DNA of 64,000 nt from Lycocorax pyrrhopterus obiensis (Eukaryota > Chordata > Aves > Passeriformes > Paradisaeidae): positions 50,370,717 through 50,434,716 of the forward strand of contig JACSVZ010000002.1 in NCBI GenBank assembly GCA_014706295.1, read 5' to 3'. Position 1 is the first letter of the stretch; each line of letters begins with the position of its first letter. Shown here in pieces: positions 8,513-64,000 of this stretch. Both the position numbers and the translations under genes were made by a program. The notes under the pieces were generated by a model. That model saw only the letters and a list, made by a program, of their open reading frames with translations, did no database searches and was not told where the DNA came from.

Positions 8513-8516
8513 AAAA
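8513..8516 (-). terminator. Pol III terminator of Y1
   Basis: Four A on the plus strand give the TTTT at the end of the Y1 transcript, directly after the lower stem. Only four T are present, the minimum usual for vertebrate Pol III, and the next minus-strand bases are GC, exactly as after Y3. Confidence 0.85.
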
Positions 8517-8624
8517 GACCAGTCAAGTGCAGTAGTGGGAAGGGGGGAAAGAGAGAACGAGGAGATCAATCTGTAACTGACTGTGAACAATCAATTGAGA
8601 TACCCCACTACCTTCGGACCAGCC
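8513..8624 (-). ncRNA. RNY1: Y1 RNA (Ro60-associated small cytoplasmic RNA)
   Basis: Y RNAs bind Ro60 (TROVE2) through the lower stem and La through the 3' U-tract. They act in RNA quality control, and their upper stem is required for initiation of vertebrate chromosomal DNA replication. Read on the minus strand, the gene starts GGCTGGTCCGAAGGTAGTGG and ends GCACTTGACTGGTCTTTT. It is 112 nt, the usual Y1 length. The internal segment CTCAATTGATTGTTCACAGT matches human Y1 as I remember it, and the C-rich loop before the 3' stem is kept. The bulged C of the Ro-binding stem is present. In the upper stem, human GUGAG/CUCAC has become GTGGG/CCCAC, a compensatory pair change. That, the intact promoter and the terminator argue for a functional gene rather than one of the many retroposed Y pseudogenes. 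Confidence 0.97.
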
Positions 8625-8856
8625 GAACAGTCCGTTTCACCCCAGAGGTATTTATACCTCCCTCGGAAAGACACCCTCGCAGTTATGGCTACCCGCGGCA
8701 CGGCGTCTCTCGTTTTCCGCTGCCCAGGCGTTCGGCTCTCTGATCCCGAGAGCGCGGTGAAAGCCCCGGTGGCAAAGACACGCCTTTAAGTGCAGGAACA
8801 ACCCTTTCTTTCCCGCTGGGAGGCCCCGCCGCATCTTGGGAAAGCAGTATGGAAAT
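8625..8856 (-). promoter_or_regulatory. Type-3 Pol III promoter of Y1
   Basis: All parts are read on the minus strand. The TATA box TATAAATA is at 8649-8656, 25-32 bp upstream of the start. The PSE at 8674-8691 reads TAGCCATAACTGCGAGGG and fits the vertebrate consensus TYACCNTAACTKKKANRG closely. The distal element holds an SPH/ZNF143 core (CCCAAGATGC, 8831-8840) and an octamer with one mismatch (ATTTCCAT, 8849-8856), 207-232 bp upstream. This is the U6/7SK/Y-type arrangement, in which SNAPc binds the PSE and Oct-1 and ZNF143 bind the distal element. The region is also CpG-rich compared with its surroundings. Confidence 0.9.
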
Positions 8857-9126
8857 CACTAGTCCCGCCCCTGCTCCCAGCGCCACCTCCCACCGCCCTT
8901 CCCTGGGAACGGCGCAGCGCTGGAGAGTTTCTCCGGGAGCCTCCTAAGAGCTGGCTTCCCCCCCCCACCCCCCCCATCTCTTTACTGCGTTTTCGGAAGA
9001 AAATTGAGCTTCCCGTGTATACACACAATTACGGCTTGTTTGCATCTCCCTACTTCGGCTCGTTTTAGTGGCTTTAATCGGTGGAATGGCAAAAATAATT
9101 CCATTTCTAACAGCTAAGGGAAGGAG
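8857..9126. other. GC-rich flank upstream of Y1
   Basis: This stretch runs from the Y1 distal element to the GGAA repeat. It contains a C-rich run at about 8959-8978 and a GC box at 8865-8873 that could extend the Y1 control region. I see no gene in it. Confidence 0.5.
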
Positions 9127-9200
9127 GGAAGGAAGGAAGGAAGGAAGGAAGGAAGGAAGGAAGGAAGGAAGGAAGGAAGGAAGGAAGGAAGGAAGGAAGG
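9127..9200. repeat. (GGAA)n tetranucleotide microsatellite
   Basis: An almost pure run of about 18 GGAA units. GGAA is the core ETS-factor site, and GGAA arrays can act as ETS-dependent enhancers in mammals. The tract lies about 270 bp beyond the Y1 distal element and abuts the probable LTR, so an influence on Y1 is possible but unproven. The length is likely to vary between individuals. Confidence 0.97.
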
Positions 9201-9205
9201 AGCTC

Positions 9206-10002
9206 TGATACACAGGACTCCTTTAACACATGAAACATAGAACTCTTTTGACATAGGTGCTTTATTATAAAGTACAGATTAATAAAAGCTGGGTGTTGGC
9301 TGCTATGCTAGACTGCAACTGCTTTTACAAGACAAGAAGCCTAGCCCTGGAAAGGGGCTATGATGATAAGTGAATAGGAGATGCTGTGCCTAATGCTAAC
9401 TGCTCTTGAAAAAACAAACCTAGGATGGTAAAGGAGTGGAATGCAAGCTAATGGGTTTGGCTAAGCACTTATCTGCAGAACAAGGGCCTAGCCCCTATGG
9501 GCTAAGCAATAAGGAGGAAGACGCAAGCTAACTGGAGTTCTAATAGAAAATAGAGGAACTGTCACAAAAGGGCAGAAAAATAAAATAGGAGAATAGGAAT
9601 CTAATCAATACACAATTATAAATAACGTATAACTAATATAACAACAAAGTGTGTAATAGTAGAATTAAGTGTGCATTAGCAAAATAGATGGGATAAATGT
9701 ATTAAGAATAGTGGGCTGTGTTTGTAACCCTAAGATAAGGAAACCGCAAGTCGTGTGAGACCCCCTAGGACTGTAACTTTAGATAAGTGACCAAAGCAAG
9801 GGCAGATGACGAACTTGTAAATGTAGAATGACAAACTTGTAAATGTATAAAAAACCTCTGTAAGGTGACCATGTCGGACACACATTTGGAGGTGTTAACC
9901 CCTGCGTGCTCCCAGCCTGGCCAATAAAGGTGTGCTTTACTTTACAGTACCTTGCTGTGGAGTAGGTTCCTTTGAATCAGCTCCTACTCACCCTGACGGA
10001 GA
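9206..10002 (+). mobile_element. Probable solo LTR of an avian endogenous retrovirus
   Basis: The plus strand shows LTR order. A U3-like AT-rich part ends in two tandem 22-bp units (9806-9827 and 9828-9849) that abut a TATA box (TATAAAAA, 9846-9853). About 70 bp later comes AATAAA (9923-9928), giving a plausible R region, and then a short U5-like tail to about 10000. The segment around GGAGGTGTTAACCCCTGCGT resembles passerine retroviral LTRs that I remember. The block is flanked by a 10-bp direct repeat, AGGAGCTCTG (9198-9207 and 10002-10011). The expected TG...CA ends do not fall cleanly against that repeat, so the exact borders are uncertain. No primer-binding site or coding region follows. 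The element starts 350 bp beyond the Y1 distal element and points away from Y1. Confidence 0.65.
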
Positions 10003-10011
10003 GGAGCTCTG

Positions 10012-13000
10012 CAGTTTCCAACCAAGGTGTTTCAAAGAATGGCCTGGAATAGGCTTCGTTGATTCAATGTACTCGTGCTTTGGGCCAATGCTGAAAATTT
10101 GTATCAGCTCACTGAGAAACTTCATGAGCTCTAGAGGTAGCCCAAAGGGAGAGGTAGCAACACATGTTTAGGATAAGTTAGGAAATGGAAGCATCCCCAC
10201 CTGCCAGAAGCAAACTCGGCTGCAGAAGAGAACTTCATGTCTGATAATTTCCCTTCAGCCTATTTTTCGGCTTCTTCTGCGTGTAATGAATGCAGACATC
10301 CATAAGCACTGATTCATCTGATTTATTTTCCTTTGGGCTTCTCTCTCCTTTCTCAAGAGGGCTGCTTCAGTTATGGGAATTCATAGTCTCTTCTGCCTAG
10401 TGGAACCCTGACCCAGGCACAGCAGCATTCTCTCCTCATGTAATAAGCAGAAGGAACTGGTAGTTAATCTCTCTGATTGCTACATTTTTCCTTCCCCAAA
10501 GGCTTGTCATTACTGAAGGAAGCTAGGTTTTCCTGGACTTGGAGGAATTCTTGGGTTTTCTCTCAAGGCCTGTAGGTACTTGTCTCCACGGCTGATGGTG
10601 TAATTCTTCATTGGAAGTGTTTCCATAATTGACTTTGAGGAATGCTTTGCAGCTCAGTGTCTTTTCAAACTCCTGAAAGTTTCCTTGGGTACTAGCATAC
10701 ATGCTGGGAAAAATCTGTCCTGGCTAAATAATCAGCAGAAGAACACAGAGTTTTATCCCCCTAGTCCTACTCTGGTGAGTGTACAGTGAAATGCAACATG
10801 CCCAAGCTGCGTGGGATTTTACTGCTCACCCCAGAAAAGACACAAGTATTTGGTTCTTGAGTTTCTGATACATATTCAGGAGGAGACTATCTATCCCTCA
10901 CTCATTTCTATGTTTCTGTCATGCCTCCTCCTTAACCCTTCCCAGAGATATGGCATCAGTTGCTCTTTTCCTTCTGTGGCCTTGCAAACTGCTACTGTAG
11001 TTGTCATGGTGTGACCCATGGGGAGGAGCCCCAAAGAGATTGGTGAAGGAGGCTGTGAAAAAAACTGGTGGCTCCCTTGGATCTGGAGGACATGTGATTA
11101 AGAAACCTGAGACAGGTAAAACTGGCTGTAACAGGAAGGAAATTCATTACTCTGTCACAAAGACAGCTTTCAGAATGGTTCTGTGTCACATACAGAAATC
11201 AGCTAGATGAACTATCTCAGCAGCAGTAAAACCTGAAATGCAGAATGTGTTAAAGCAGAGAGAAATCCTCCAAGGGCTGCACTTGCTTTATTTTGCATGG
11301 AATCATATGATAAATGTTCCCTGCATTTTCTCCTGGATGTTCATTTTTTGTAATGCTGAAGATGCCCATCTGTAAAGGGGAGAAGTAGTGAAAGGGTGGG
11401 AATTAACAAAGGATCGGTGCTTAAATGTTTGGGTGGATTGCTGGTAGCAATGTTTTGAACTTTTTTTTTTTTTAAGCAGGAACGGCAGCATTATTAGTTA
11501 CCTAAAACCTCAAACCTTCATATCTGATCTTTACCTTGCATTTTCAGAGGATTGGTGACAATTAAATACAGTCACAGATGATCACTGAGATGTTAAACTC
11601 CCGCACTTTGATATAAATTTATTCTCTCTTCTTTTCTTCTATCAAAGTTTTATTATATGTCACTACTACAAATTGAGTAAATTCTGGTCTGTTTGATTTA
11701 GCCTGAGTTTCTTTTTTATTTTTTCATTAGAAGATCAAGAACTCAGATTTTTATCTGACCAGCTTTCTCTTTTGGAACCAATTACAGAAACACAAATAAG
11801 ATCAGACTTGTTGCCTAGTCCTCCTGCTTAGGGTGAGAACTCTAGAACAGCAGGAAGTATTGAAAATTATTCGGAGGCCACAGTGCTGTTCATTGTGGCT
11901 ATAGAAATTTCCATGAAAAAAGAATTGTTTGCAAAATGGTTTATTTTATCCATACTGTATGGCTTCTCTGAAACTTAGGAATTTTTTTCAAGGGGGTGTT
12001 CTACTGTAGTGTAGCTGTTCTATTTGAGTTAACCTGTATGATAAGTTTCCATTCCATTTTATTTTTATGCTTGCTGTTAATTAGGTCCATGCCTTCAGTA
12101 AGTGTAAAAGAGTATTGCTTTATTAACATCAATTACTGTTAGCTCTTATTGACATCGAGAGAGCACCCACACGTCTCAGCACAACCAGCTCCCCCTCTGA
12201 CAGATGACAGTACCAACAGCAGGCAAGAGACATTTCCCTGCAAGCTCCTTAAGGCATGGAATTAATGCATTCTGATTTACAGAGGCTACGGTCCTTGGAG
12301 TACTCACAGGGCTAGGGCAGTGACAGGGAATGATACACACTTACTGCAGCACATTCTGAAAGCATACTTCCTTTGGATGTGTAACCCAATGTTGTTTCGA
12401 ATTGGTGGGGAACAACATCTTAAATTATAGATCTGTGTTTTCAAGACAACAGAGAAAATTATTTCATGTGACACTGTTAGCAGCTTTTCCTTCTGAGGCC
12501 AAGTGAGATGTGGTTTTCCCCTTCTTGGGGTATCAGTCCTAAGAGAGATAACCTGTATCACCATGAAAACATTTTGTGTTTTCTGGGGTGGAACAAAACT
12601 GTGAAGTATCTGAAATTACACACCATGTCTTTTTTTTTTTTTCTTGAAGAGCTTTCATAAAATTCAGAGATTGGGAAGACTCTCTCCCCCTTGGGAATTA
12701 ATTAAAATGACTTTATTTAATCTCTGCAGACTATAGGTATTTGTATATTCAGTCTTCTAACATCCCTCCCTAGAGAATGCTTGCTAAAGAAACAGCTCAG
12801 CTTTTTCAGCAGAGGTAACAATGTTGCACATTTGCAATTACTATTTCTTACACTAAGCATCTACGTTAATACTTCCAGAAATCAGTTTAAACAACATAAC
12901 AAACTTCTAGTGAAAGGATAACTTTGCCTAGAGAGAAGGTACTTTCTCTAACTGTACTTTGAGCTGTGTTCTCTTCAAAATGTTTGTTTTGCTTTAATGA

Positions 13001-15214
13001 GACAATGTTGTAATCTGTTAGCCTTAGAGTACTTTTGTAAAACTCAGCTAAAAGAAATTGAGCAAATTTCACAAGAAACTTGGTCATGTTGCAAGGAAGA
13101 TAATTTTTATCTATTTTCCTTTTTCACATTTGACTCTTGCAGGTTTATGGTGTAGATGTGGCCAAAATGATTGCGGTTTGGTGTCTAAAGACTGTTGTGG
13201 GAGCTGGGAAGGCAACAGTTTTCCTTTTGCGGCTTGTTTGGGGACGACCTTCTTCCCTCCTGCACAGGTGTAGGCTACCTTTTGGCAGAAACACAGCACT
13301 GTTTCTGTGACACACTGTCCAGCAGAAGGTAAAGGTACTCTGCCAGCTGCAGCAGGTGCCACACCTGTGCAGGGGGACAGGGATGCATGGAAAGCATCAG
13401 CTGCAGGTCTGAGGACCCCCATCACCCTACACAAGGGCTTCCCCCCGTGAGTTACTGTCTCAGCAGGCAGAGTGGCTCTGCTGCAGTGTGGTGCGACTCC
13501 CTGGTGCTGCAGGAGGGAGGATATTTCCTCTTCTCCAGAGGAAAGCAGCTCTCTAACATGCGCCACTGGGACTAATTGCTGATGACTGGATTTTGTCTTC
13601 CCCATGGAAATTTCATTGGTCTTAATTAAGTTACCTTAACCTTTCTTTCTTGGTCTGCTGAACTCCGGGGGCCTGAGATGTAGAAAGACAGTGGCTCCAT
13701 AAATAAGCTGCTCTGATCATAAAAAGAACTATGAGCCTGGGAGAAGTGATTAAAAATTCCTAATGAAAATTCCACTTGGGTGAACAAACCAAGAGCAAAT
13801 GATTGCTATCACTGTAACTGACCTTTCTATCACATTCAGTTGTGTGAGACTCAGCTGTTGCCGTTTATATCACAGTAATAAAAAATTCACTAGAATTTGC
13901 TTTACAATGTTCTAGTAACTAATATTCTGTTAATTGATACCCTGGGTGATTAATAAAACCAGCCTATAAAATTCCATTTGAAACCTAGCACCTGGATACA
14001 AATTTTGCAGGTTCAAAGTGGTATGAAGACAAGAAATTTTCTAGAAAAAATGTCATCACACATATGTAAAAGGCACTTGATGTAATTTTTACTTCCTCGC
14101 ATAAGGTACCGTGTTTTAAAATGTATCTTGAGATGAGAGTTGTATATAGTAGGAATTTATCTACTGATCTAGTGACTGCAAAGCCAACCAGGAGACGTAA
14201 TCAGCAGAGCTGGCTGACATATTCTTAGTGGACTCCCAAATACTTCAAGTCAGAAAGTCTGTTGCATCTTGCTTATTTAAAAGGTTTCTTTAAAAATGAC
14301 TCTGCTTGCCTAGAGGATGCAGCAAGTGATAGGAAGAAGCTGTTAGAAACCAGAATCAGGGGTGTGTTTCCAGAGTGGGAAAACCAAGAGAAAATTCCTC
14401 ATGAAAGCAGAACGGACTAGGATCCTATACTGTAAAATAGTAGAAAAATATAAATGCGTCTGGATGCAGTGATGAGCAATGCAGGTGTCTTTCCTGCAAG
14501 ACTGTGGGGACGCAGGCAGCACCCCAGCTTGGGACAGGCTCCAGTCACAGCCGAAAGAGTGGCTGAAAGCTGGGAAGAGGCAGGGAAGAGAAAATGGCAT
14601 CGAGGCCTGGCTGCCCAAGAGCGATGGCGGCTTCCAGCAGGACAGGTGGGCTGGTGGCACAAGCCGGGAGGAGGCATGATGGCAAAAAAGGCCAATGCCA
14701 AAAAAGAGATGGGTGCTTCCTGCACCTCACAGAGAGGCCCCTCAGCTCCCAGCTGCCCACACATGGGCCTGGCCATTCGGCCATGGCTGCCAGCAGCGCC
14801 GGCTAAAGGAGCAGGGCCTGGCGTGAGGGCAAGGAGGGGCTTTCCTCAGGCATTTGCAGCCCTTTCTCCCCGAAAAGGTGCTGTTGAGTTTGGAACCAGC
14901 TTCGTAATTTGTGCCCGCTTGGCAAAAAGCCTTCCAGGACACCTGTTGGGCAAAGGTGGGTGTCTCAACACTGAGGGAACAGGCAGGCTCTCTGCTGGGA
15001 TCCCAGCGGGAATGTGCAATGAATGGCTCGGTGGAGGTATGCCTCACATATTAAATCTCATAATTTAACCCGGCTCTCAGCATTATCCCTGATGTGCACA
15101 TCCCTTGGGATTTGGAAGGGCCCTGTCCTGTGGCAAGGATGGGAGGGCTCACTCTGTGATTCGGACAGAGCTGAGTGTTTGCAACCACCACACCCACTGA
15201 CAGGAAAGGGAGCA
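10012..15214. other. Intergenic DNA between Y1 and Y3, first part
   Basis: Mostly AT-rich single-copy sequence. I recognised no exon, RNA gene or named repeat. A GC-richer patch at about 14450-15000 carries long overlapping open frames on both strands (the longest at 14454-15068), but without homology, codon pattern or splice context. A patch at 13110-13600 is similar. Both look like base-composition effects. Confidence 0.5.
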
Positions 15215-15407
15215 GAATGGAATGGAATGGAATGGAATGGAAAGGAAAGGAAAGGAAAGGAAAGGAAAGGAAAGGAAAGGAAAGGAAAGGAAAGGAAAGG
15301 AAAGGAAAGGAAAGGAAAGGAAAGGAAAGGAAAGGAAAGGAAAGGAAAGGAAAGGAAAGGAAAGGAAAGGAAAGGAAAGGAAAGGAAAGGAAAGGAAAGG
15401 AAAGGAA
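15215..15407. repeat. (GGAAT)5-(GGAAA)~33 microsatellite
   Basis: Five GGAAT units (about 15216-15240) pass directly into about 33 uninterrupted GGAAA units (to 15407). Together they make a 190-bp pure polypurine strand. All three plus-strand frames, and the polypyrimidine complement, stay open across it, which produces long meaningless frames rich in Lys, Glu, Arg and Gly or in Phe, Leu, Ser and Pro. The purity suggests a young, unstable array. Confidence 0.98.
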
Positions 15408-16770
15408 GCACAATTATTACCAAGGTGATTAACTGTGTTAAGTTAAATATTAATCTATGGCAAAGGGGTGTTATTGGAAGGTTATCTTTAGCCCTCATTA
15501 GGAAAAAGCTTCCACACCCTTGGAGAAGGCTTGTAGTAGCATACCTGTAACAGGGAAACTTGGAACTGGTAAAGAAAATCCTGAAGGCGAGAAATAAAAT
15601 AAAAAATATATCTAGGATTTAATTTTATTACAGCATGCATGTTTCTAGCCACATATTCATGTCATTCGGGTTTATGAAGAGGTAGATGGCTCTCAATTTC
15701 CAGAGCTGTGCCTGCAGATCCTGTGGTGCAGTCGCAGTGTGTGAGCACAAGAGAGCTGTCACTGCCTTTGTGTGTTCCGCCTGTGGACACGGTTGGAGGC
15801 AGGTTGTGGAGGTGGTCATAGAAGTACACAGTACAACTTTGCCTCTGTGGCTCAGTCCACAAAAGGAGCCTTTTGTTCACAGGCTATGTGTTTGTGGGGC
15901 TGTAAGGCATTTGTGAGGTAGCTGTAGCTGAAAGGATGGCTGTGGAAAAAACCCAAAGGGGAATGGAAGAGAAAGGTCAACAAGAACAATAGCATTTTAG
16001 CCAGAAGGATTTAATAATTAAACAATAAATGCAGATTTCAAAACGATGACAACTGCTGATTAAAGAAGCTACAGGAAAATGAATCTCTGGTGGCTGAGGA
16101 TATATTCCTCTCAGCAATTTACATCTCACAGCTGACTTAAAAAAATCCCTGGCACGTTTCCCCCAGTCTAGAAAGAGGGGCCTAAGGTGGCTCAAGGAAA
16201 TGAGCTTTGAGCCACCACCTGTGGGAGTGATCATTAAAGAAATGTTTCGGGCTCACAACAACCAAAAATTAAGTACCTTTCTGCACGAAGCAAGGACCTC
16301 CACCTTGTTCGGTTGCTGTATTCTCTGGCAATCAAATGGCATGTTGGCCTGAAGGGCCTAGAGCAGAAATTCTTGTGTTTTGTAGGTGAAAGGTTTAGGC
16401 AGTCATCATGTGTTTCTGCTATTTATCCTTTTGACTATTTCGTTAATCTGCGAAAAGCATGCTGTGTATTAGAAATCAAAACCATATAATTAAAGCAGAA
16501 TCTCGGGTAAGTGACTCCTCTTTCCTCCGCTGCCCCCAACAGTGAGTAACACTGCTGTTGCACAAATGCCTTTGAAGCACAGTGCCTGTGTTGTTAACAG
16601 TGGCAAAAATCAAGTAAGTAGCAGGTACTGGCTGTTCCGTGAGGGATTAAGATTAAAATATATACGCTTGACTCGATTCTCATTTATTCCAGAAAATCAG
16701 AGGCTAACAAAAGAGACTGTCAGCTTGCAAATTAAAGGGAATATTAAAAAAAGAGAGGACCTTCAGCAGC
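15408..16770. other. Intergenic DNA between Y1 and Y3, second part
   Basis: AT-rich unique sequence with no gene or repeat that I recognise. It ends at the Y3 terminator. Confidence 0.5.
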
Positions 16771-16774
16771 AAAA
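16771..16774 (-). terminator. Pol III terminator of Y3
   Basis: A four-T stop on the minus strand directly after the lower stem, followed by GC as in Y1. The shared TTTTGC context suggests common descent of the Y1 and Y3 3' ends. Confidence 0.85.
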
Positions 16775-16868
16775 GACCAGTCAAGTGCAGCAGTGGGTGT
16801 GGAGAAAGAACAAAGAAATCTGTAACTGGCTGTGATCAATTATAAATACCACTGCCATCGGACCAGCC
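16771..16868 (-). ncRNA. RNY3: Y3 RNA (Ro60-associated small cytoplasmic RNA)
   Basis: The minus strand begins GGCTGGTCCGATGGCAGTGG and ends CTGCACTTGACTGGTCTTTT. It is 98 nt, slightly shorter than human Y3 (about 101). The segment TTGATCACAGCCAGTTACAG followed by ATTTCTTTGTTC is the Y3 signature and separates it from Y1. The lower Ro60-binding stem with its bulged C is intact. The upper stem pairs GGCAGTGG with CCACTGCTG, the element known to be needed for Y RNA function in DNA replication initiation. The promoter and terminator are complete, so this should be the functional locus. Y3 is the most conserved Y RNA in vertebrates. Confidence 0.97.
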
Positions 16869-17099
16869 GAAAGCTGCTGTGGCAGGAGAGGCATTTATAG
16901 CTCTGAGAAGAGAACACTGTCTCTCTTACGATGGTATACCTAATACCCCAGTCTCGCAAAACCAAACGGTTGTGGGTTTCTCTTTCAAAACCAACAAGCG
17001 GAATCTCTCCTCGAGTCCCATATGTGTTACATTTCGTGCGGGCATTCTCCTGGAAGCATCCCCGGGCAGCGCTGCATGCTGGGTTGGCGCTATGCAGAT
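16869..17099 (-). promoter_or_regulatory. Type-3 Pol III promoter of Y3
   Basis: Read on the minus strand, the TATA box TATAAAT is at 16893-16899 (25-31 bp upstream). A PSE-position element at about 16919-16936 has the ACCAT core but matches the rest of the consensus poorly, so it is the weakest part of the assignment. The distal element has a perfect SPH/ZNF143 core CCCAGCATGC (17074-17083) and an octamer-like ATCTGCAT (17092-17099). These lie 206-231 bp upstream, with the same spacing as at Y1. Confidence 0.85.
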
Positions 17100-17237
17100 G
17101 AGCCACGGGCTGGAAGCTGCTCGGGGAGGGTGCTGTGCTGCAGCTCTTCCTCCCGGCGGCGGAGCTGGCATCGCAGGCGATCTCCGATACAAGAAAAAAG
17201 GCTGCTCGCGGATAATCTTTAACGAGTGAAGCGTGCA

Positions 17238-17263
17238 GAGTTTACTGTGTGAGTTTACTGTGT
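17238..17263. repeat. 13-bp tandem duplication upstream of Y3
   Basis: GAGTTTACTGTGT occurs twice back to back (17238-17250 and 17251-17263). This is a small slippage-type duplication about 140 bp beyond the Y3 distal element, with no known role. Confidence 0.9.
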
Positions 17264-17945
17264 GGGCAGAGGCAAACAAGCCGTCTCACAGATACATCTG
17301 AGCGATTATGTTCTTTCAGTTCCGTCTGCTGTAGCTCGTAACAAGCAGCGCACACCTTTCTCTGTTCGGGAGCGGCTGCCGAAGCCTTGGCTCTCTGCTC
17401 CACTCCACATCAGGGCTACACATGAGGAGATGGAGAGGCCAGGAGCAAATGGGCATGGGTGGGATCCGGATCTCAACAGCTACTAAGAAACTATTATTGT
17501 AAAATAGAACTTTTATATTAGGGGTAAAATAAACACCTAAAAAAAAAAGTCGTGGTGAGTTTTTTTGTTTTGGGTTTGGGTTTTTTGGTGTTTTTTGTTT
17601 ATTTGTTTGTTTTGTTTTGTTTTCCCTTTTCTGACAATATTAGAGCCAAAGGGCATCAGTGAAAAAACAAATCCAAAAGGTAGCGTTTCAGTGAAATTCT
17701 CTCCTTGCAGACAAAATCAGCTGCAGAAGACTATTCCTCTTGCCCCAGGCATTCCCACATCCACCTGCCCCTCAGCAACTACTTCTGCAGCAAACCCTCA
17801 CACCCTGGGAGAAAGTGATCTCAGCTTTGCAAACCAAAACTCCCATGTAATATGTGGAGGGTCCTGGTTAGTGCAGACCAGCTCAGCCACACAGTTTAAA
17901 GTCCAAAAGAGCACAACTGTGAGGGCAATGCACCGCAGCGCTGGG
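17264..17945. other. Intergenic DNA between the Y3 promoter and the ERVL LTR
   Basis: Contains AATAAA followed closely by an A-run (about 17527-17549), which looks like the tail of an old retroposed transcript, though no source gene is recognised. A T/G-rich low-complexity stretch follows (about 17555-17625). No gene is visible. Confidence 0.45.
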
Positions 17946-18479
17946 TGTAAAGGTTTTGAGCGGGATAGGGTAGATTTTATTCCTAGCAGCTGGTACAGTG
18001 CTGTGGTTTGGATTTAGTGTGAGAATAACACTGATAGCACACTGATGGTTTAGTGGTTGCTGAGCAGTGCTTACCCTAAGCCAAGGACTTTTCAGTTTCC
18101 CATGCTCTGCCAGGGAGCAGGTGCACAAGACAGAACAACTGACCCAAACCGGCCAAAGGGATATTTTTTAGCAGAGAATGTCATTCCCAGTGTATAAACT
18201 GGAGGGAGTTGGCAGGGAGCCACTTATCACTGCTGGGGGATGGGCTGGGCATAAATCAGTGGTGGGTAAGAAATAATGTGCATCACTTCTTTCTCTTGGG
18301 CTTTTTTCCTCTCTCTCGTCTTCTCATTATTAACTTCATTTCAATTATTAAGTGGTTCTTACCTCAACCTATGTGTTTTATTTTTCCCATTCTCCCCACC
18401 CCAGGGGAGGGGTGGAAGGGTGGGGAGTGAGCAAGCTGTTGTGTGGTACTTTGTTGGCATCTGGGGTTAAACCTCAACA
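17946..18479 (+). mobile_element. ERVL solo LTR with perfect 5-bp target duplication
   Basis: The 534-bp element begins TGTAAAGG and ends CCTCAACA. It is flanked on both sides by CTGGG (17941-17945 and 18480-18484), a 5-bp target duplication as expected of ERVL. The body matches the common avian ERVL LTR as I remember it, including the CTAGCAGCTGGTACAGTGCT segment near the start, a TATAAA at 18193-18198, the CATCACTTCTTTCTCTTGGG block and the GGTTAAACC near the end. No internal sequence remains, so it arose by recombination between two LTRs. It has diverged moderately and is probably an old insertion. It lies 0.85 kb upstream of the Y3 distal element and faces the opposite way to Y3. Confidence 0.95.
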
Positions 18480-21206
18480 CTGGGACAGAAGGTCTTCCAC
18501 CTTCCAAAACCAGCGTCTCACTCATTGCTGTTTAATTGTGCTGCAGTTCTTTTCATGTCCCCTTTCTGGTCACCTCACAAAGATGACCTTTTGAGCAGCT
18601 CTACAGCCTGTTCTGCCGACCTATGGCTGAGCTCCTGAGGTCACACCTTTGGTTCCTGATTTCTCACCTGCAGTCCCACCCTCTCCCTTGTATCCGCATA
18701 TCTAATCTTGGAAAGCTATACAGTGGCAAATAGAAGTTCAAATGTTACCTTTTCAGCTCAAGAGTGCACAGTAGCAGTGAGGAAAAGAAGGAATTGCCCT
18801 GGAAAATCTTCAGGAGCCTGATTTTAGATTGTCTTCAAATTGCTGTGTGCACAGTAGCTCACTGTCTCATCTCAGGAGTAGGTTTAATAATCCTAAAGAG
18901 AGTAAACATCACTCCTAGTGATTTCAGAGAGATTGGCTTAAAATATTCCAGAGACTCAGTTCAGCTTGAAGTCTGTGATCTATCAGGTTTCTTTGGGCTA
19001 AGGAAAAAGGTCAAAATACAGTCATTCCTTGCTCCAAAAAGAGAATAGAAAATGAAGTTATTTTCATAAATTTGGAATAATGTCTGCATTTTAAAATTTG
19101 GGCTATTTGGCCTCTGTATTTATAGCATTAGTTTGGAACCAGAAGAAAAAGTTTTAGGTTGGGGTTTTTTTGTAGAAGAATACTGATATACTGATGGCAC
19201 CATGATTAATGGATGGATTTCTTCAGAACAGTGCTGCACTTTCATTCCAATACCCACTGAGTGCCAGAATTTTTATATTCTGAAACCAGATAAACCAGGA
19301 AGTGAAGAGTCAAAGCTTCATCCAATTTGTTCTTTTTGGAGGCATAACATTCTGTTGTGCTTGAGGCCCAGCAGGTTCAACCTGGCTCTGAGGAAGCTTG
19401 AAATAAAACAAGCAGGGGCACCAAAGCAGTGTCTCTTTCATGGGAAAGTAGTTTCCAGCCAGCACCAAAAGCCAAATCTGTCTTTGGTCTTCCTCCTTAA
19501 ACTGAAGACATTATTACCTTTTCTGATTTATCAGAAAATCAGAAGTGGTGGGGTTTTTGGTTTTTTTTTGTTGTTGTTGTTGTTGTTTGTTTGTATTTAT
19601 TTTTATTTTTGTTTGTTTGGGTGTTTGTTTCCTTTTGTTTGGTTTTTGTTTTTAAGTCCTGCAGAGTTCTTTTTGGGTATATAAACATACTGAGCATAAA
19701 GGGAGTCAGGAAAAAAAAAGAGCATGTCATTGTATAAAATCAGTTAAAATGCAATGCAAGGGATGCACACACAATTTGGAACGATCCCTGAGATTTTTTG
19801 CTACCTCTCGTTTTTGTCAAATACTTTGGTAATGCTGCGAAAATGTTTGGTTAGGGATTTGTTTATGCAACGCAGCCTGTTTGCACATGTTTTACATCAG
19901 TAATATTGTATCCAGGCTTTTTCAAACAAGTTCCTAATCTGACAACAACTTTTTGGACTTTATCACAGTTGGAATCCATTTCACTTGCTACTACTTCAAA
20001 ATTGGTGGGGATTTTTTTTGTGGAATTTATTTTCTACAAAAAGTTGCAAAATTGGGCCACTCTCAGCTGTCTTTCAATGCTTTTGTGCCATTGTTGCAGC
20101 AGGCTCCAGCACGTGAATATGACTGGAAGTTATCTCTTTTCCCCCTTGAGAGGAACTGTGTATTTTCCTTGAGTTTTCATACCCTTTTCTCATGTGTATA
20201 GTTTTACAACAGGGCCCTGCTTACCTTCACAGATACATCTTTTACCTATTGCAGAGATTTACAAGGGATTAAATCCTTGATTCTAACAATCCCTTATCAT
20301 GAAAAAAACCCCAAAATATTTGTAAACCCTGGTAGAAAATGGGAACCTTAAATCAGCCCAGAGCATTGTTCTGAAGGCTTTGTCTTTGCTCTCCTTCCAG
20401 CCACATCCCCCAGGCCTCCAATTTTGTATTATTTTATCACACTAATTACATACCCAGCAGTATGAGCTGGGCTTCAGGGTTAGATTTTGGGGTATGTGTC
20501 ATCTTCTATACCACCTTTTTAAATGTACATTTGAAAATACAGGTTGGAGCCTTGCTACATGTTCCAGAAGAACTCATCTACAGTGGAGACCCACTCTGAA
20601 TGTAATAAGCCAGGTTTTTCTAATAAGAGCTCAAGAGGATTTCTTTATGTGGCTTGTGTTAATTTGCTTGCTGTGAGACACTGCTCTTCTGACTAGCCTG
20701 TTTAATGCTGACTTCTTGTCTCTTGTGACCCACTGTCTCTGTGTTTAGCTGTGTCTTCAGAGGCTTAATACACAGCCAAAATATTTGACATGTTAAGTCA
20801 GAGGGTTAATGTTGCTACAGGAACCTTTACGAGCACTTGTGTAAGGTTACTTTTAATTAATTTTTACAGACTGGAAAAAAAGGTGACAAAGATTCTACAA
20901 TGGGCTTCAAATACAGTGTGCTACACAGCACTTAAAAATCCAGTGTTAGTGGTGGCATTCGCTAAAATGATTTCATGTGACATTTCAACACATACTGTGG
21001 GCAACATTCCTAAGAGTGTTTGAGGAATGCAAGAGGACACACGATTCAATGAGCATCTTCACATCATCTTTACACCTGCCAACATAAAGAAAGAGAGGTG
21101 TCTCCTTCCACTGTGTAGGAAGAGAAAAGTAACTTATGTTAGTCAAAGCATTTTCCTCATGAAAAGTAAATTCTAGAAAAGAAATGCTTGATGAATTTTG
21201 CTGATT

Positions 21207-21304
21207 TTAGCAAACAATAGTATAGTATCTATTAGCAAACAATCTATAGTATCTATTAGCAAATATCTATAGTATCTATTAGCAAACAATACTATAGTAT
21301 AGTA
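21207..21304. repeat. Degenerate minisatellite, unit about 28 bp
   Basis: The motif TATAGTATCTATTAGCAAA recurs about three to four times with small gains and losses, giving an AT-rich tandem array of roughly 100 bp. No function is indicated. Confidence 0.85.
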
Positions 21305-23384
21305 CCAGTAATAGCTGGTATCTCAGAAAGGAATTTTGTTAATCAGGATACTCATTTGAAACACTGAGAACTAAAACTTCCTTGATTTCCATACAGCTCT
21401 AATCTATCAAAAGAAAATAAAGAAAGCAAATGACCCTGCCAAGGGATTTATTCTGGATTTTTCCAAGTGAACTAATCTGGCAATAGGGTTGCACTGGGTG
21501 GAGAAAAGATCCCAAAACCATCTCCTTCCTCCTTTACCTTGTAATTCCTAAGAGAAACATGGTTTGGTTTGTGGGTGGAGGCATTTTTTTGGTTGGTTTT
21601 TGTGGGTTTTTTCCTCAATGTCCCTGAATTCATAAAGTTTTAAAAAGCATCATAAGTGTAGCCAAGAAGCAGTAGTAAAACCAATGTTTGGCCACTAAAA
21701 TTTTTCCCACTGATGGCTGAGTTTTCTGGTCAAAATAAACTAAATATTGCGGTATGGCATTCATTTTCTTTGAAATAACTTCTTTTTGTTCTCTGTAACA
21801 TAAGCTCTCTAATTCACTGCAGACTTGCAAGTGTCCACTGAAGACAGAGTGATTTGCTGAATAACTTAATTTCTTGCGAGTGTATACTGCTTCCACCTTC
21901 TTCCCAGGAGTTTCAGCAAGACCATAACACTACGGAATTATCAGAAGCCATACGTAGCAGCAGAGCAACTGCTCTGCTGTTCTGCTTTTGCTTTGTGTCT
22001 ATAAATGCAGCAGTAAACGGCAGGATATTTCAGAGATTGAAGAAGGGATCAGACAGGGACATGATGAGTTGGGCAGGGAGTCTTTGTTGTTTCACTTAAG
22101 GGAAAAGCCATTTATGGCATTTATGTCATTAGAAATTTGAATACTACTTTTCAAGCTTTTCCAGACATGGGGAAAAATTATTTTTCTCTTTCTGTTTAAA
22201 AGGTACTGCACAATTTAGTAAGATGAGTAAACTAAATGTTGCAATTTATTAAGAGTATCAAATGGAGCAACAAGTTTTCCCACCTCTACAGGCAAGAGAT
22301 CATAAGCAAAATATTTAAAGGCTTGTGATGTTCATGGTTATTAGCTGCTTGAAAATTATCTTCTCAAGGATTAAGCCTAATTTTATTTGCTTCTGTCCAG
22401 ACAACTTCAGGAAATGTCACCTGAAAATTGATTTCTATCAATTTCAAGTAAGAAAATGATTATGCTCTTTATTTTCTTCTGACAGCCCTGGCCAAGTCCA
22501 CTCAGAAATCTTTATTGAAGTTTAAACTGCCTACCAAGAAGTCTCTTGATAGTCTCTGCACTTCATCTTTCTAATTCAACTTGTTCTTCCAAAGCTAAAT
22601 TGATATTGCAATTTCCTAATTTATGATGTCATGTCGTCTTATTCAGGAACTGACAGATGCTGAAATCTTAATGCAGTAGTAATGTTATGTCCTGTATAAA
22701 CTGGTACATCAATTACATTTGTCATTTGGAACATCTCAGCTGAATTGCTTTGGATGGGTCTGGTCAGGGAATAAGACTCTGTTGAGGTGAGAACAGGAAT
22801 TTAAATATAAAAATATAAATGATTGGCAGGGATGCCAATACAATCATGTTCCAAAATATCTCTGTTCCAGCTAATAAAGGTTTAGGGCTGTCCTTGAGAA
22901 GTGCTTAGTATATCATGGTTTTAACTTAGTGTTTCAAATAATTTTCACCATCAGTCCTTGGCACTCAGCTGGCTTTCAATAAAAAAAAAATAATGGATGC
23001 CTCTTTGCATTTATTGTGTATTTATTTATTTACTGTTTTATTTACACTACATGTTCTTATTAATGTTGCCACCTTTTACTGTACAGGCAGTTTATGACTG
23101 TATGCAATAGTTAAATGGCTCATGGCAAAGCGTTGCTTAATCAAATCTCGTTTAGCCACAGTGTCAGCTGAAGTCCCGATCCAGCAAAATATTTAAATAT
23201 TGGCAGTACTGTAAGCATGCAGCTATTCCTTTCAGTTTTGAAAATATGGTGCATGAGCTTAATCCTGAATCAGGGCCTAATAATGTTTCATCTGTGCTGG
23301 TTGTCTAGACTCTGTTACAGATGTTTTCCTGCAAAGGCTTTGGCATGTTGCATATTTGTGCCACAAGTGGAAGCCCGTCCTCCT

Positions 23385-23468
23385 CTTGCTGTTTTCACAG
23401 CACCCCTACCCAGGGGATTTTTTTTCCTTGCTGTTTTCACAGCATCCCTTCCCCAGAGGATTTTTTTC
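23385..23468. repeat. Two-copy 42-bp tandem duplication
   Basis: CTTGCTGTTTTCACAGCA begins both copies (23385 and 23427). Each copy continues into a C-rich part and a run of seven or eight T. The copies differ by a few bases. A simple local duplication. Confidence 0.9.
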
Positions 23469-25287
23469 CTTCCCCAGAACCACAGTGTTAGGAAAGGTCC
23501 AGGCTTAGACACACAAGAAAATTAGGATAATTCAGTCCTCAGCAAGCAGATGTTGAGCACTTCCTAAATTTTGTATGCCTAAATGTCTCTGCAAAAGTGG
23601 GTCCCAGTGGGTTCCTGAGTGGCTGTAATGTAAACAAAACAAAAATAGCTCTTATTTCTCCTTTCCTCTTATCTCACCTGCAGCTTAGGTTTATTATTGA
23701 CATCAAAAATAAGACATCTGGTATTCTAGAAACCTAAATAACAGCTACTTTCTACACTTCAAGGAAGCACTATGGAATACGAAAGCAGTGTATTTTGACA
23801 GACTGCAGTGCACTAGCAAGGAAGGATTCAAATTTTAGAAAGATACCACTGTGTTTTTGTATCAGGGGAAAAGTAATAGTCAGTATTTTACCCTTAAAAT
23901 AACAGCTTCATTTAAAACCTTTTTATTCTAAGGAGTCAGTCAAGGCTAATGAGGAAATTTAACATTAGTTGAAGGTCCTTGAGAAAGATAAAGTTACGTT
24001 ATCCTCGAGAATGTACTTCCATAAGGCATTGAATAGCATTGGGCAAGCACATACACACACATTACTGCATATATTCAAGCACAAGTAATGTTTATATTGC
24101 TACAACACTCAGGAACAACCCAAGGAGGCCTCATTTGGATTCAGTTTACTTTTCTAGTAATGTAGACTGTTATCCAAGTTTGAGCCAGAGATTCTTATTC
24201 TGAAGGTTTTCCTTCCAGACTTTCTTTCCTTGTATTGTAAATATTATTTTTTTTCCCAGATCAGTTACATTAAATTGAACGAGAAATTGAAGTTCCTTCT
24301 GAGTTTCAGGATTGCGATTTCTGCTGTCTTGCACCACTGTTGCAAGGGGGGAAAAAAGACCCCAAAACTTTGAGATATTGGATATGTTTTAAACTACTAA
24401 CCACGAATAATTTTACTTTATGTGTTTGTATTTCATTTTCCCCCCTACCTAGCAAATGCTACCTGACACTCAACTGCTGTGAGGACAACCAGGTTAATTA
24501 AATAATATACTCAGCTCATTCTACTGACAGTTGGAAGTTTTCATTAATTTCACATGGTGGCCCCTGAATCTTCCTGACTTCTGGAGAACAATGTAAGGAA
24601 TTCTTACATTCTTGAATTCTTACCGTTTGAGGAATTCTCCAACTAAAAATCACTGGAAAAAATCAAAATGTGTCTGAGAAAACAAAGATATTGAGAAACA
24701 AGAAAAGTTTTTCTCAGAGATCCACAGAGAATATTTTTCTGGTATGATAACTCCTAACCCAGGCAAATAACCTAGAGACCAGTTCCTACAGAAGCAGGCA
24801 AGAATCTCTAATCAATATAAAGATTTTTTTTTCCAATCCTCAGCTTTTTGTTGTTGTATTAAAAAAAAAAAGTCTTCTGTGCAAGATAATTACCCACATA
24901 AATGCCACATCAGTATTGTACCCCTGATTCTACTTTGGTCACAAAGCCAGATTTATCATCTCTATTTTTATGTAGTCTACTTTTTTGACTATTATGGCCC
25001 AAGTACCTAGAATCATGGAGTTATTACTTCTGCCAAAGAACCATAGAAACTTGGAAATTCTGTGCTCCTTACACCGTATGTAGAACTATTATTCTTTTTT
25101 GTTGCAGAGGCAAATGTACCGCACAATGAATTTTTGCGTTCTGTAAATATCACAGTAGGTTAAGCGGGACTTGACAGTGGCAGCACAGAGCTCACCTGGG
25201 AAGCTACAATCTCACTTTAACTTCAGATTGATAGACGTGACCAGCAGCTGCCAACCTGTTAGGAAGAGCAGGTGTGTAGAAGGCTTT

Positions 25288-25292
25288 AAAAA
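25288..25292 (-). terminator. Pol III terminator of Y4
   Basis: Five T on the minus strand after CTGGTC, followed by AAAGCC. This is a stronger stop than at Y1 or Y3. Confidence 0.85.
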
Positions 25293-25384
25293 GACCAGTC
25301 GAGGTTAGCAGTGGGGCGGAATATAGAAAGGTTAGTTTCACTAACAGTAATAATTTCTTTGTACCCACTACTATCGGACCAGCC
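25288..25384 (-). ncRNA. RNY4: Y4 RNA (Ro60-associated small cytoplasmic RNA)
   Basis: The minus strand starts GGCTGGTCCGATAGTAGTGG and ends ACCTCGACTGGTCTTTTT. Length is 93-97 nt depending on where the U-tract ends, as for human Y4. The upper stem GTAGTGGG pairs with CCCACTGC. A central hairpin GTTAGTGAAACTAAC has a perfect 6-bp stem and corresponds to the human TTAGTGTCACTAA hairpin. The loop diverges more from human than Y1 or Y3 do, and the last unpaired bases before the lower stem (CTC) differ from human (TTT), but the Ro60 stem and bulged C are intact. A full external promoter supports function. Confidence 0.95.
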
Positions 25385-25609
25385 ACGACTTACCATGCCC
25401 TGGTGTTTATATAACTCTCTCAAATCTCCGTTCCACTACAGTTAGGATGATCTATTCACTGCAATACAAGCAAAGAAGATGATTAGCCGAGGGTATATAC
25501 TTTGTGTCACGAGCACCGGGAAACCACGTCCCTGTCCCCTCTCCACATGTCTTTGGCAGTTCAGCGAGCAGAACTTAGTTCTTGGCTTGCAACAAATTTG
25601 CATGATGGG
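25385..25609 (-). promoter_or_regulatory. Type-3 Pol III promoter of Y4
   Basis: Read on the minus strand, the TATA box TATATAAA is at 25406-25413 (22-29 bp upstream). The PSE at 25433-25450 reads TCATCCTAACTGTAGTGG, a good consensus match. The distal element combines a perfect octamer ATGCAAAT (25596-25603) with an SPH/ZNF143 core CCCATCATGC (25600-25609), which share the four bases ATGC. At Y1 and Y3 the same two sites are separated by 8 bp, so the Y4 element is arranged differently. Confidence 0.9.
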
Positions 25610-47479: not shown

Positions 47480-47833
47480 TGACATGTAAGCCAACTGCAT
47501 TATTTGGGAATGAAGGTGCATTTGTGATATATTTCCCCCGCAAGAGACTTTTATCACTCAGGACCTCATTACAGTGGCCACTGCTCATTTTCGGAGCTTT
47601 GAGCCTGTAGAAGCACTAAGGTATTCACAAGGAAAAGGGGAGCTGATATTTGGGGAGGAAGGATGACGGAGCAAGGATGTGTCGATTGCTCCAGAGGACA
47701 TCGGAAGTGGCACTCGATGTGGGACGCATCGGAAAGGGATCTAGTCACAAGGGAGGTCCAAAGTACCCATTAGAAAACTTATCTTGGCATTTTTATTTTT
47801 CGCTGCTGAAGAGGAATAAAGGCTGGAGCGACC
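47480..47833. repeat. Duplicated 355-bp block, copy 1 (outside the island)
   Basis: This block aligns from end to end, in the same orientation, with 48333-48689. By eye the first 90 bases agree at roughly 86 percent. Shared segments include CATTACAGTGGCC-like and GGGACGCATCGGAAAGGGAT sequences and the AAACTTATCTTGGCA block near the end. Many differences are CpG in copy 2 against TpG or CpA here, the pattern left by methylation and deamination. It is probably a former part of the promoter region that is no longer protected. Confidence 0.9.
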
Positions 47834-48332
47834 AGAGAGCAGGACGACAGCCGAGTAAAGGTACACGAATCCTCCAGGTTTAAATACAACCTCGGCAACA
47901 AGATTGATGAGCATGGTTCGCGGATTAGAAACGAGGGAAAACGATAGCAACCTTAGAGGCTGGAGACAGCACGTAGCAAGCAACAGACTCCGAGCCTGAT
48001 GCGGAGCGAGCACTTTGCTGCTGCTGCGATTTATGACATCCCCCCACGACAGGGGGAAACCGCGCTGGATGCGGAGCAGCGAGGGAGAGGAAGCTGCCGG
48101 TGCGATGCACAAAAGGAAGGCTGGTGGCGGTAAAGTTTGGGCAAGAAAAGGTCAAACACGCGGACACGAGGCAGCAGCGCTGCGAAGTGACTCAGCCGGC
48201 CGAGACATCCGCCGGGGAGCGGCGGGGCTGCCCCGCGGGCGTCTGCGGGGGTGCGCGGGTTGTCCCCTGCCTCCAAGGCTGATACATCCTCGTTCTCACT
48301 CATTTCTGATCTGTGAGCCACGCTCGCGGATC

Positions 48333-48689
48333 TGACACGTAAGCGTACGGCATGATTTGGGAATGAGGGCGCGTTGGTGATTTATTTCCCCCGCGAGAGA
48401 CTTTTACCAGTCAGGACCCCCTTACAGTGGCCGCCGCTCATTTCTGATCCCGAAGATGCTCTGAGGTAGCCACAAGGATGAGGGGAGGTGATATTTGGTG
48501 AGGAAGGATGACGGGACTTGTGGAGGCAAGGATGCGGCGATTGCTCCAGTGCATCTCGGAAGCGGCAGTCGATGCGGGACGCATCGGAAAGGGATGCGGT
48601 CATAAGGGAAGGGCTAAGTACCCGCTAGGAAAACTTATCTTGGCAATTTTATTTCTCCCTGCTGAAGATGGAGAAAGGCTGGAGTGACC
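48333..48689. repeat. Duplicated 355-bp block, copy 2 (inside the island)
   Basis: Direct-repeat partner of 47480-47833, separated from it by 499 bp of unrelated sequence. This copy keeps its CpGs (for example GGGCGCGTTGG and GGCCGCCGCTC where copy 1 has TG or CA) because it lies in the unmethylated island. Sequence before and after the two copies does not match, so this is not a simple longer tandem duplication. Confidence 0.9.
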
Positions 48690-49023
48690 TCCAGTGGCTG
48701 AGCTCCCGCGCCGGGGGAGCAACAGGCGGAGCGGCGGCGGGGACGGAGGGCCCGCTCCGGGCATTCCCGCCCCCCCCCCCCGGGACCGTTACGGCCGTTA
48801 CGCCTCTCCCGCTCTCGGACCGATTCAAACTCGGCAGCGGCGCCGAGCGGGAGCGGCGGCGCGGCCCCTCCCGGTGCCCGCCAATCCTCTCGCCTGCCTC
48901 CCTCCCCTTTCCCCTCCCTCTCCCCACTTCTCCACGTGAGGCGGCCGGAGAGTTTCAAGCCTCCCCGGCGCGGCGCAGCCCCGGGCCCGGCCCCGCCGCG
49001 CGGCGCGGGGGAAGCGGGCGCGC

Positions 49024-49052
49024 GGGGGGCGGGGGGCGGCGGGAGCGGGGGG
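49024..49052 (+). other. G-quadruplex motif upstream of EZH2 exon 1
   Basis: Four G-runs of six, six, three and six on the plus strand, separated by loops of one to four bases, satisfy the standard intramolecular quadruplex pattern. The motif lies about 170-195 bp upstream of the probable transcription start. Confidence 0.8.
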
Positions 49053-49156
49053 AGCGCGAGCCCCCCGTCCCCCCGCGCGGGCAGCGCGAGAACAAAGAGT
49101 TCTCCCCACCCCTCCCTGCCCCCCCCCGCACGTGGGGAGCGAGGCCACGCCCCTCG

Positions 49157-49286
49157 CCCCGCCCCTGCCGCTCCCGATTGGCTCGGCGGGGCCCCGGCCG
49201 CGTCCGTCCGTCCAATGGGGGCGGCGCTCGGCGCTCGCCAATGAGCGCGATGGCGATTGGGCCGGCGCGTTTGGCGCTCGGTCCGG
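49157..49286 (+). promoter_or_regulatory. EZH2: EZH2 core promoter (GC box, CCAAT boxes, E2F site)
   Basis: A GC box CCCCGCCCC is at 49157-49165. CCAAT boxes in either orientation are at 49177-49181, 49212-49216, 49238-49242 and 49256-49260. The E2F consensus TTTGGCGC is at 49270-49277. There is no TATA box. Multiple NF-Y sites with E2F is the pattern of cell-cycle promoters, and control of EZH2 by the pRB-E2F pathway is established in mammals. The segment 49247-49286, containing GCGATGGCGATTGGG and CGCGTTTGGCGCTCGGTCCG, is nearly identical to the human EZH2 leader as I remember it. This is the main reason for naming the gene. Confidence 0.9.
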
Positions 49287-49401
49287 GAGGGTGAATCCGG
49301 CAGCCGGAGGCGGAGGGAGGCAGAGCGGGAGCGCCGAGCGGAGCTGGCGGCGGCACCGGCGGGAGCGGCGGCGGCGCGGAGCCGGGGCGGCGGGGGGGCG
49401 G
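49219..49401 (+). other. EZH2: EZH2 exon 1, non-coding 5' UTR
   Basis: EZH2 is the histone H3 lysine-27 methyltransferase of Polycomb repressive complex 2. In mammals its first exon is untranslated and the start codon lies in exon 2. The 5' end here is placed by analogy with the human transcript, which begins about 40 bases before the conserved GCGATGGCGATTGGG segment, and could be off by tens of bases. The 3' end is set by the donor GGTGAGTG, with the intron starting at 49402. An ATG at 49250-49252 lies within the conserved leader and opens no recognisable protein. The product is not encoded in the window: no sequence matching the conserved N-terminus was found downstream. Confidence 0.82.
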
Positions 49402-49514
49402 GTGAGTGAGCGGGCGAGCGAGCGACACCTCGCGGGCTTGAGGCGGCGGCGGTGCCGGGAGCGGCTATTTATACCCGGGTCCTTTGTCATGGGGGAGGGG
49501 AGGAGGGGAGGGGG
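49384..49514 (+). other. G-rich, quadruplex-prone start of EZH2 intron 1
   Basis: G-runs at 49384-49402 overlap the exon 1 donor. A second dense set at 49491-49514 has runs of five, four, four and five G with one- to four-base loops. The non-template strand is strongly G-skewed just downstream of the start, which is typical of promoters that form R-loops. Confidence 0.75.
49466..49473 (-). promoter_or_regulatory. TATA-box sequence facing left in EZH2 intron 1
   Basis: The minus strand reads TATAAATAG inside sequence that is otherwise almost pure G and C. It would place a start at about 49436-49443, with transcription leftward through exon 1. It may equally be a MEF2-like site (CTATTTATA on the plus strand, lacking the final purine) or have no role. 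Confidence 0.35.
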
Positions 49515-63200: not shown

Positions 63201-64000
63201 TAATAGCACAGGTAAAAAGCCCTTTGAGATTCTGTGAGTGTCATTTCCCCCCCCACACCCGCAGCTTGCATAACTTAATGTGGAAAGACTTAGCAGCTCT
63301 GAAATCACAGCAGTGAACAATTTTTCTTACTTAATCCAAAAGAAGAATATTGGGTTTTGACCATTTTTTCACCAAGAATCTCTCTGTGATATTAACAAAA
63401 GTTTGGTATAAATGTAGAAGACAGATCTGGTAGATTAGAGCATTAATTTATAATTAATTTTCAAGTTAGCTTTTTTGAAGTCTGGCAATATGTATGTGTT
63501 TTATTGGTTTGGTTGTTTTTTCCAGGTGCTTGATAGTTGTAGTAAGAGTGCTAGAAACTGCTTACTCTGGAAGGGTTTAGGATAGGTTCATAGACTGTAT
63601 TATCTTGTTTGCATTTAGGATGCACAAAGTAGAATACTAAAAGGAAATTTCTAAGAGTTTCTAAGCAGTAAAGTTTAGTTTAACATATCTGAAAAATAAG
63701 TAGCTGCAGTTGAACAATCATTTTGTTGTATTGTGCTGTGTAAAATCCTGTAACGAAAAGATGATATAAGTTCTTTATGAGGTAGTTTGGTAAAATTAAC
63801 AACTTCAGCTCTAAGCTTAACGCATTGAGTTTGATACCTGAAATGCATTCTTTTTGGGGGTGTTTGGTTTTTTTCTGTTTTCTAGCAAGTATTTTTGCAG
63901 GCTTGTGGAAAAATCTTGTTAATCCCTTCTGTTACTAAAATTCTGCTTTTTTGGTTGAATATGAAAGTTGTCCTAAATTCTGCTGCCCAAGTAAAAATTT
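60266..64000 (+). other. EZH2: EZH2 intron 1, continued to the window end
   Basis: AT-rich sequence with no recognisable exon. Pyrimidine tracts ending in AG at about 62080-62095 and 63120-63135 resemble splice acceptors, but the following bases do not encode EZH2 sequence that I know. They could be cryptic sites or minor alternative exons. Confidence 0.6.

Follow-up and report, generated by a model that had tools for sequence, protein, structure and literature searches.

Does the bird-of-paradise DNA analysed here, a 64-kb stretch from Lycocorax pyrrhopterus obiensis called the window below, hold the avian form of the conserved vertebrate Y RNA cluster, and is Y5 truly missing from it? The survey of 48 bird genomes by Gardner et al. 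2015 (PMC4378963), which cites Mosig et al. 2007, reports in its available portion that the Y4-Y3-Y1 cluster is conserved and that every bird genome surveyed lacks Y5, which alligator and turtle keep. The same portion gives a median of three Y RNA matches per bird genome, RNA-seq confirmation of two of the three chicken Y RNAs, breaks in the cluster in some assemblies, for the most part where contigs end, and unlinked copies, most or all of which are considered pseudogenes. The present locus is almost certainly the orthologue of this vertebrate cluster in its bird form, with Y1, Y3 and Y4 and without Y5 (probability about 0.95), and its gene content, as read from the sequence, fits an avian assignment.

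A cmscan search of the window against Rfam 15 (4227 families) gave three matches at or above the gathering score, all to the Y RNA family (RF00019; gathering score 38 bits) and all on the minus strand. Each spans positions 1-96 of the 96-position model, so all three genes are full length. They lie at 8513-8624 (112 nt; 78.2 bits, E = 1.2e-14), 16771-16868 (98 nt; 85.2 bits, E = 1.8e-16) and 25289-25384 (96 nt; 64.8 bits, E = 3.9e-11), and their 5' ends (8624, 16868 and 25384) are spaced 8244 and 8516 bp apart. No fourth Y RNA was found in the 64 kb with permissive filters and E values up to 10; that search returned ten matches, namely the three Y RNAs and seven to other families, each of the seven being rejected as falling under its own gathering score. 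A preliminary description of this DNA had claimed three full-length Y RNA genes with these spacings and had named a search with RF00019 as a check; the three hits fall where it had placed the genes.

The genes were named individually by comparison with human Y1, Y3, Y4 and Y5 sequences, which, like the other human queries used here, were typed in rather than taken from database records. The gene at 8513-8624 is closest to human Y1 (92.9%; 138 bits versus 65.4 for human Y3), that at 16771-16868 to human Y3 (87.3%; 108 bits versus 61.1 for human Y1) and that at 25289-25384 to human Y4 (76.3%; 72.5 bits versus 34.0 for human Y3). Y4 is the most diverged of the three from its human namesake. This one-to-one best fit gives the same identities and order (Y1, Y3, Y4) as had been proposed at the outset.

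In a Y RNA, the lower stem would carry the bulge that binds Ro60 and be followed by an upper stem and a variable loop, and the U tail is a possible La binding site. Both stems are retained through compensatory change when the three window genes are aligned with the four typed human sequences: 96.6% of the 119 stem cells in this seven-sequence alignment are paired and 4 of the 17 stem pairs show changes on both sides, values that none of 500 shuffles reached for either measure, although these pairing statistics are favoured because the structure was derived from the same alignment used to score it. One changed pair lies in the upper stem of Y1, where A-U in human is G-C in the window gene. A measure of further pair types was equalled by 86 of 500 shuffles, and pairing drops to 25-61% when the stem partners are slid by 1 to 3 columns. 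Folded as single strands, all three RNAs contain the lower and the upper stem, with z-scores of -2.20 (Y1), -1.01 (Y3) and -3.58 (Y4); 3, 31 and 0 of 200 shuffles, respectively, fold as well, and the Y3 fold taken alone is unremarkable.

The three genes end in TTTT (Y1), TTTT (Y3) and TTTTT (Y4), and with their common minus strand these T runs agree with the shared strand and terminator type described earlier. By analogy with the known family, the genes would be transcribed, their RNAs may bind Ro60 and La, and they may take part in RNA quality control and DNA replication. A local variant was seen at 25294-25303 (minus strand) of Y4, which reads CTCGACTGG where Y1 and Y3 of the window read CTTGACTGG. 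The site adjoins the lower-stem bulge to which Ro60 would bind, and under the presumed pairing the Y4 variant would replace a G-U pair by G-C.

One or more of these genes might instead be retroposed pseudogenes inserted near EZH2. Y pseudogenes are common in mammals: according to the accessible part of PMC5745555, retropseudogenes number about 1000 in mammals and are few in most other vertebrates, mammals being the exception. The preliminary statement that most Y-like sequences in vertebrates are retroposed pseudogenes thus holds for mammals and not for birds, as far as the available portions of PMC5745555 and PMC4378963 go. Against retroposition, each of the three genes is preceded at the proper distance by a TATA box, an element outside the transcribed part that retroposed copies of the RNA would lack. 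The boxes start at -32 (Y1), -31 (Y3) and -29 or -27 (Y4), which is the distance of Pol III type 3 promoters, and all fall inside the range of -32 to -25 that PMC4702372, in the part available, takes as one of the signs of a genuine Y gene. Furthermore, three distinct paralogues stand in the order published for birds (PMC4378963, available portion), and the 1500 bases flanking each gene on either side show no mutual similarity at E 1e-3, save for some 36 promoter bases and a few just beyond the 3' end that Y1 and Y3 have in common. Retroposition of any of the three is therefore extremely improbable. A recent duplication of the Y loci was likewise rejected, the flanks being without homology beyond the genes at the same threshold, bar the short Y1/Y3 stretch.

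The external promoters differ in how clearly their elements can be recognised. The Y1 promoter (8625-8856, minus strand) has its TATA box from -32 and a PSE-like core, GCCATAACTG, from about -65; its distal part contains CCCAAGATGC from -216 and an octamer-like element with one mismatch at -232. In the Y3 promoter (16869-17099, minus strand), the TATA box from -31 is preceded by a weak PSE-like stretch (matrix window from -66), and the distal part has CCCAGCATGC from -215 and an octamer-like element, again with one mismatch, at -231. The Y4 promoter (25385-25609, minus strand) combines the TATA box TATATAAA from -29, a PSE-like core, CCTAACTG, from about -62, and CCCATCATGC from -225, which overlaps an exact octamer, ATGCAAAT, at -219. 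Scored with a PSE+TATA matrix built from four TATA hexamers and the PSEs of human U6, H1 and 7SK, all typed in, the three promoters rank 3 (Y1), 32 (Y3) and 5 (Y4) among 127966 positions on both strands. On sequence grounds, Y1 and Y4 have a clear PSE and Y3 a weak one, because 31 window positions outscore Y3 on this matrix.

The distal elements are less distinctive. An octamer-like element stands near -220 in all three promoters (1, 1 and 0 mismatches for Y1, Y3 and Y4), and the pattern CCCANSATGC, starting at -216, -215 and -225, respectively, has its only three copies in the window there. At least three copies occurred in 5 of 100 shuffles, and the count is weak because the pattern was composed after inspecting the three promoters; more weight falls on the common position near -220. 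The Y1, Y3 and Y4 promoters match the 18-base Staf consensus only with 4, 3 and 5 mismatches, and matches of that quality are not rare, the window having 29 places with 3 mismatches and 153 with 4. Distal sequence elements of the octamer and Staf/ZNF143 kinds are thus only suggestive for the Y genes. Of the common promoter type claimed earlier, the TATA box in all three genes and the PSE in Y1 and Y4 stand, whereas the Y3 PSE is weak and the distal elements do not go beyond suggestion. As to the accompanying claim that complete promoters identify the functional genes, an intact promoter is no proof of expression: in the rodent Y5 genes the promoter elements are conserved and expression is undetectable (PMC4702372, in the part available).

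To the right of the cluster, human EZH2 exon 1, likewise a typed query, aligns with plus-strand positions 49247-49374 (E = 1.1e-14; 74.8% over 131 columns). This stretch is presumably the non-coding first exon of EZH2, provided that the query is right. The match is partly CGG-rich, with a non-repetitive core that starts GCGATGGCGATTGGGC. It lies within a CpG island at 47751-50500, the presumed EZH2 promoter, in which 500-base windows have a GC content of 0.57-0.80 and an observed/expected CpG ratio of 0.87-1.04. Right of 52 kb, G exceeds C and T slightly exceeds A on the plus strand, which fits plus-strand transcription. Because of the exon 1 match, the CpG island and this skew, EZH2 most likely starts at 49247-49374 and runs rightwards, in the opposite direction to the Y genes, the 52-64 kb region being most likely its first intron.

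A tblastn search with the whole human EZH2 protein, typed in, detected no EZH2 coding exon in the window (best E 1.6), and one with a single typed C-terminal piece of PDIA4 did not detect that gene there (best E 0.47). The PDIA4-Y1-Y3-Y4-EZH2 arrangement proposed in the preliminary description is thus supported in its order and by EZH2 exon 1, but not in its PDIA4 end or by an EZH2 coding exon. The window contains 767 stop-to-stop stretches of at least 40 codons; none of the ten that were scanned against Pfam passed the curated cut-off. Searches with typed CR1 queries, tried because CR1 would mark a bird or reptile genome, found neither CR1 motifs nor a CR1 3' tail in the window. Long purine microsatellites occur between the Y genes, (GGAA)20.8 at 9119-9201 and (GAAAG)38.6 at 15215-15407.

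Human Y5 is located between RNY4 and EZH2. Between Y4 and the presumed EZH2 exon 1, the window sequence (25385-49246) contains no N, and no Y5-like gene was recognised in this interval: RF00019 gave nothing there under permissive cmscan settings (E up to 10), and blastn with human Y5 gave nothing above 24.0 bits. A further model, R1, has human Y5 among its sequences and was searched unfiltered at E up to 10. It matches the three Y genes by construction; the next-best match reaches 12.2 bits (E = 1.6), and all eight weak matches lie outside the interval. As a control of sensitivity, mutated copies of human Y5 with 3% indels were scored on their own against 29.7 bits, the best human-Y5 match anywhere in the window; 98, 93 and 61 of 100 copies exceeded this score at 25%, 30% and 35% substitutions, respectively. 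The earlier claim of no Y5 between Y4 and EZH2 is borne out: nothing was found in a gap-free interval, and in the control 93 of 100 copies with 30% substitutions outscored every human-Y5 match in the window. Two PSE+TATA-like arrangements, at 42428 (plus strand) and 29404 (minus strand), outscore all three Y promoters. The idea that they are orphan Pol III promoters left as a trace of Y5 was rejected, no Y-like sequence being recognised downstream of either.

There is only a slim chance that Y5 is still there, diverged past recognition or relocated. What speaks for this is the 29.7-bit match itself, at 63242-63281 on the plus strand, which resembles the 3' half of human Y5 (78% of 41 columns, blastn E = 0.004); its score was reached in none of 60 shuffles (best 28.3), and the reversed window gave at most 24.0. 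However, the 5' half of Y5 is missing nearby, its score being equalled by 439 of 2000 random places, as against 0, 0 and 3 of 2000 when the same test is made at the three Y genes. The match is also on the opposite strand to the Y genes and inside the presumed EZH2 intron 1, R1 reports nothing at the site up to E 10 with filters off, and mutated Y5 copies mostly score higher than it does. The reported absence of Y5 across all bird genomes surveyed (PMC4378963, available portion) likewise counts against a retained gene. Because the 5' half is absent and the human Y1 query gives a match of 28.3 bits at an unrelated position, 53247, the resemblance at 63242-63281 is probably due to chance.

By eye, the sequence AGTTGGTCTAG at about 63005, some 240 bases upstream of 63242, was seen to resemble the 5' end of Y5. 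That it forms, with the 3' half at 63242-63281 on the plus strand, a decayed and broken Y5 remnant in EZH2 intron 1 is very improbable. If true, it would mean that the removal was not clean, and it would reveal the way in which Y5 disappeared from the bird lineage.

The three-gene Y cluster without Y5 is thus real and ordinary, and both its arrangement and its lack of Y5 are already published for birds. The finding repeats published knowledge in one genome, since the 48-bird survey gives the same cluster and no Y5 in the portion available (PMC4378963). The missing Y5 need not do harm, because, for DNA replication in vitro, the individual Y RNAs show functional redundancy, and rodents do without detectable expression of Y4 and Y5 (PMC4702372, in the part available). 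The locus could be used for dating the loss of Y5 against alligator and turtle, which are reported to keep it (PMC4378963, available portion). It is a gap-free example of the known fact that, of the four vertebrate Y RNAs, birds retain three, linked at a single locus, and can serve as a reference annotation.

Compared with human 7q36 (RNY1, RNY3, RNY4 and RNY5), Y1, Y3 and Y4 are orthologous and EZH2 is a neighbour in both, whereas Y5, which human has between RNY4 and EZH2, was not found in the window. The avian Y4-Y3-Y1 cluster of Gardner et al. 2015, as far as its available portion describes it, is alike in paralogues, order, linkage and Y5 absence, and no difference was found on these four points. 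The rodent Y cluster, in which Y1 and Y3 are expressed and Y4 and Y5 are called fossil, resembles the window in being without a detectably expressed Y5 (PMC4702372, in the part available). Rodents differ in that Y4 expression is undetectable too, and mouse and Chinese hamster keep the Y5 sequence together with its promoter elements (PMC4702372, same part).
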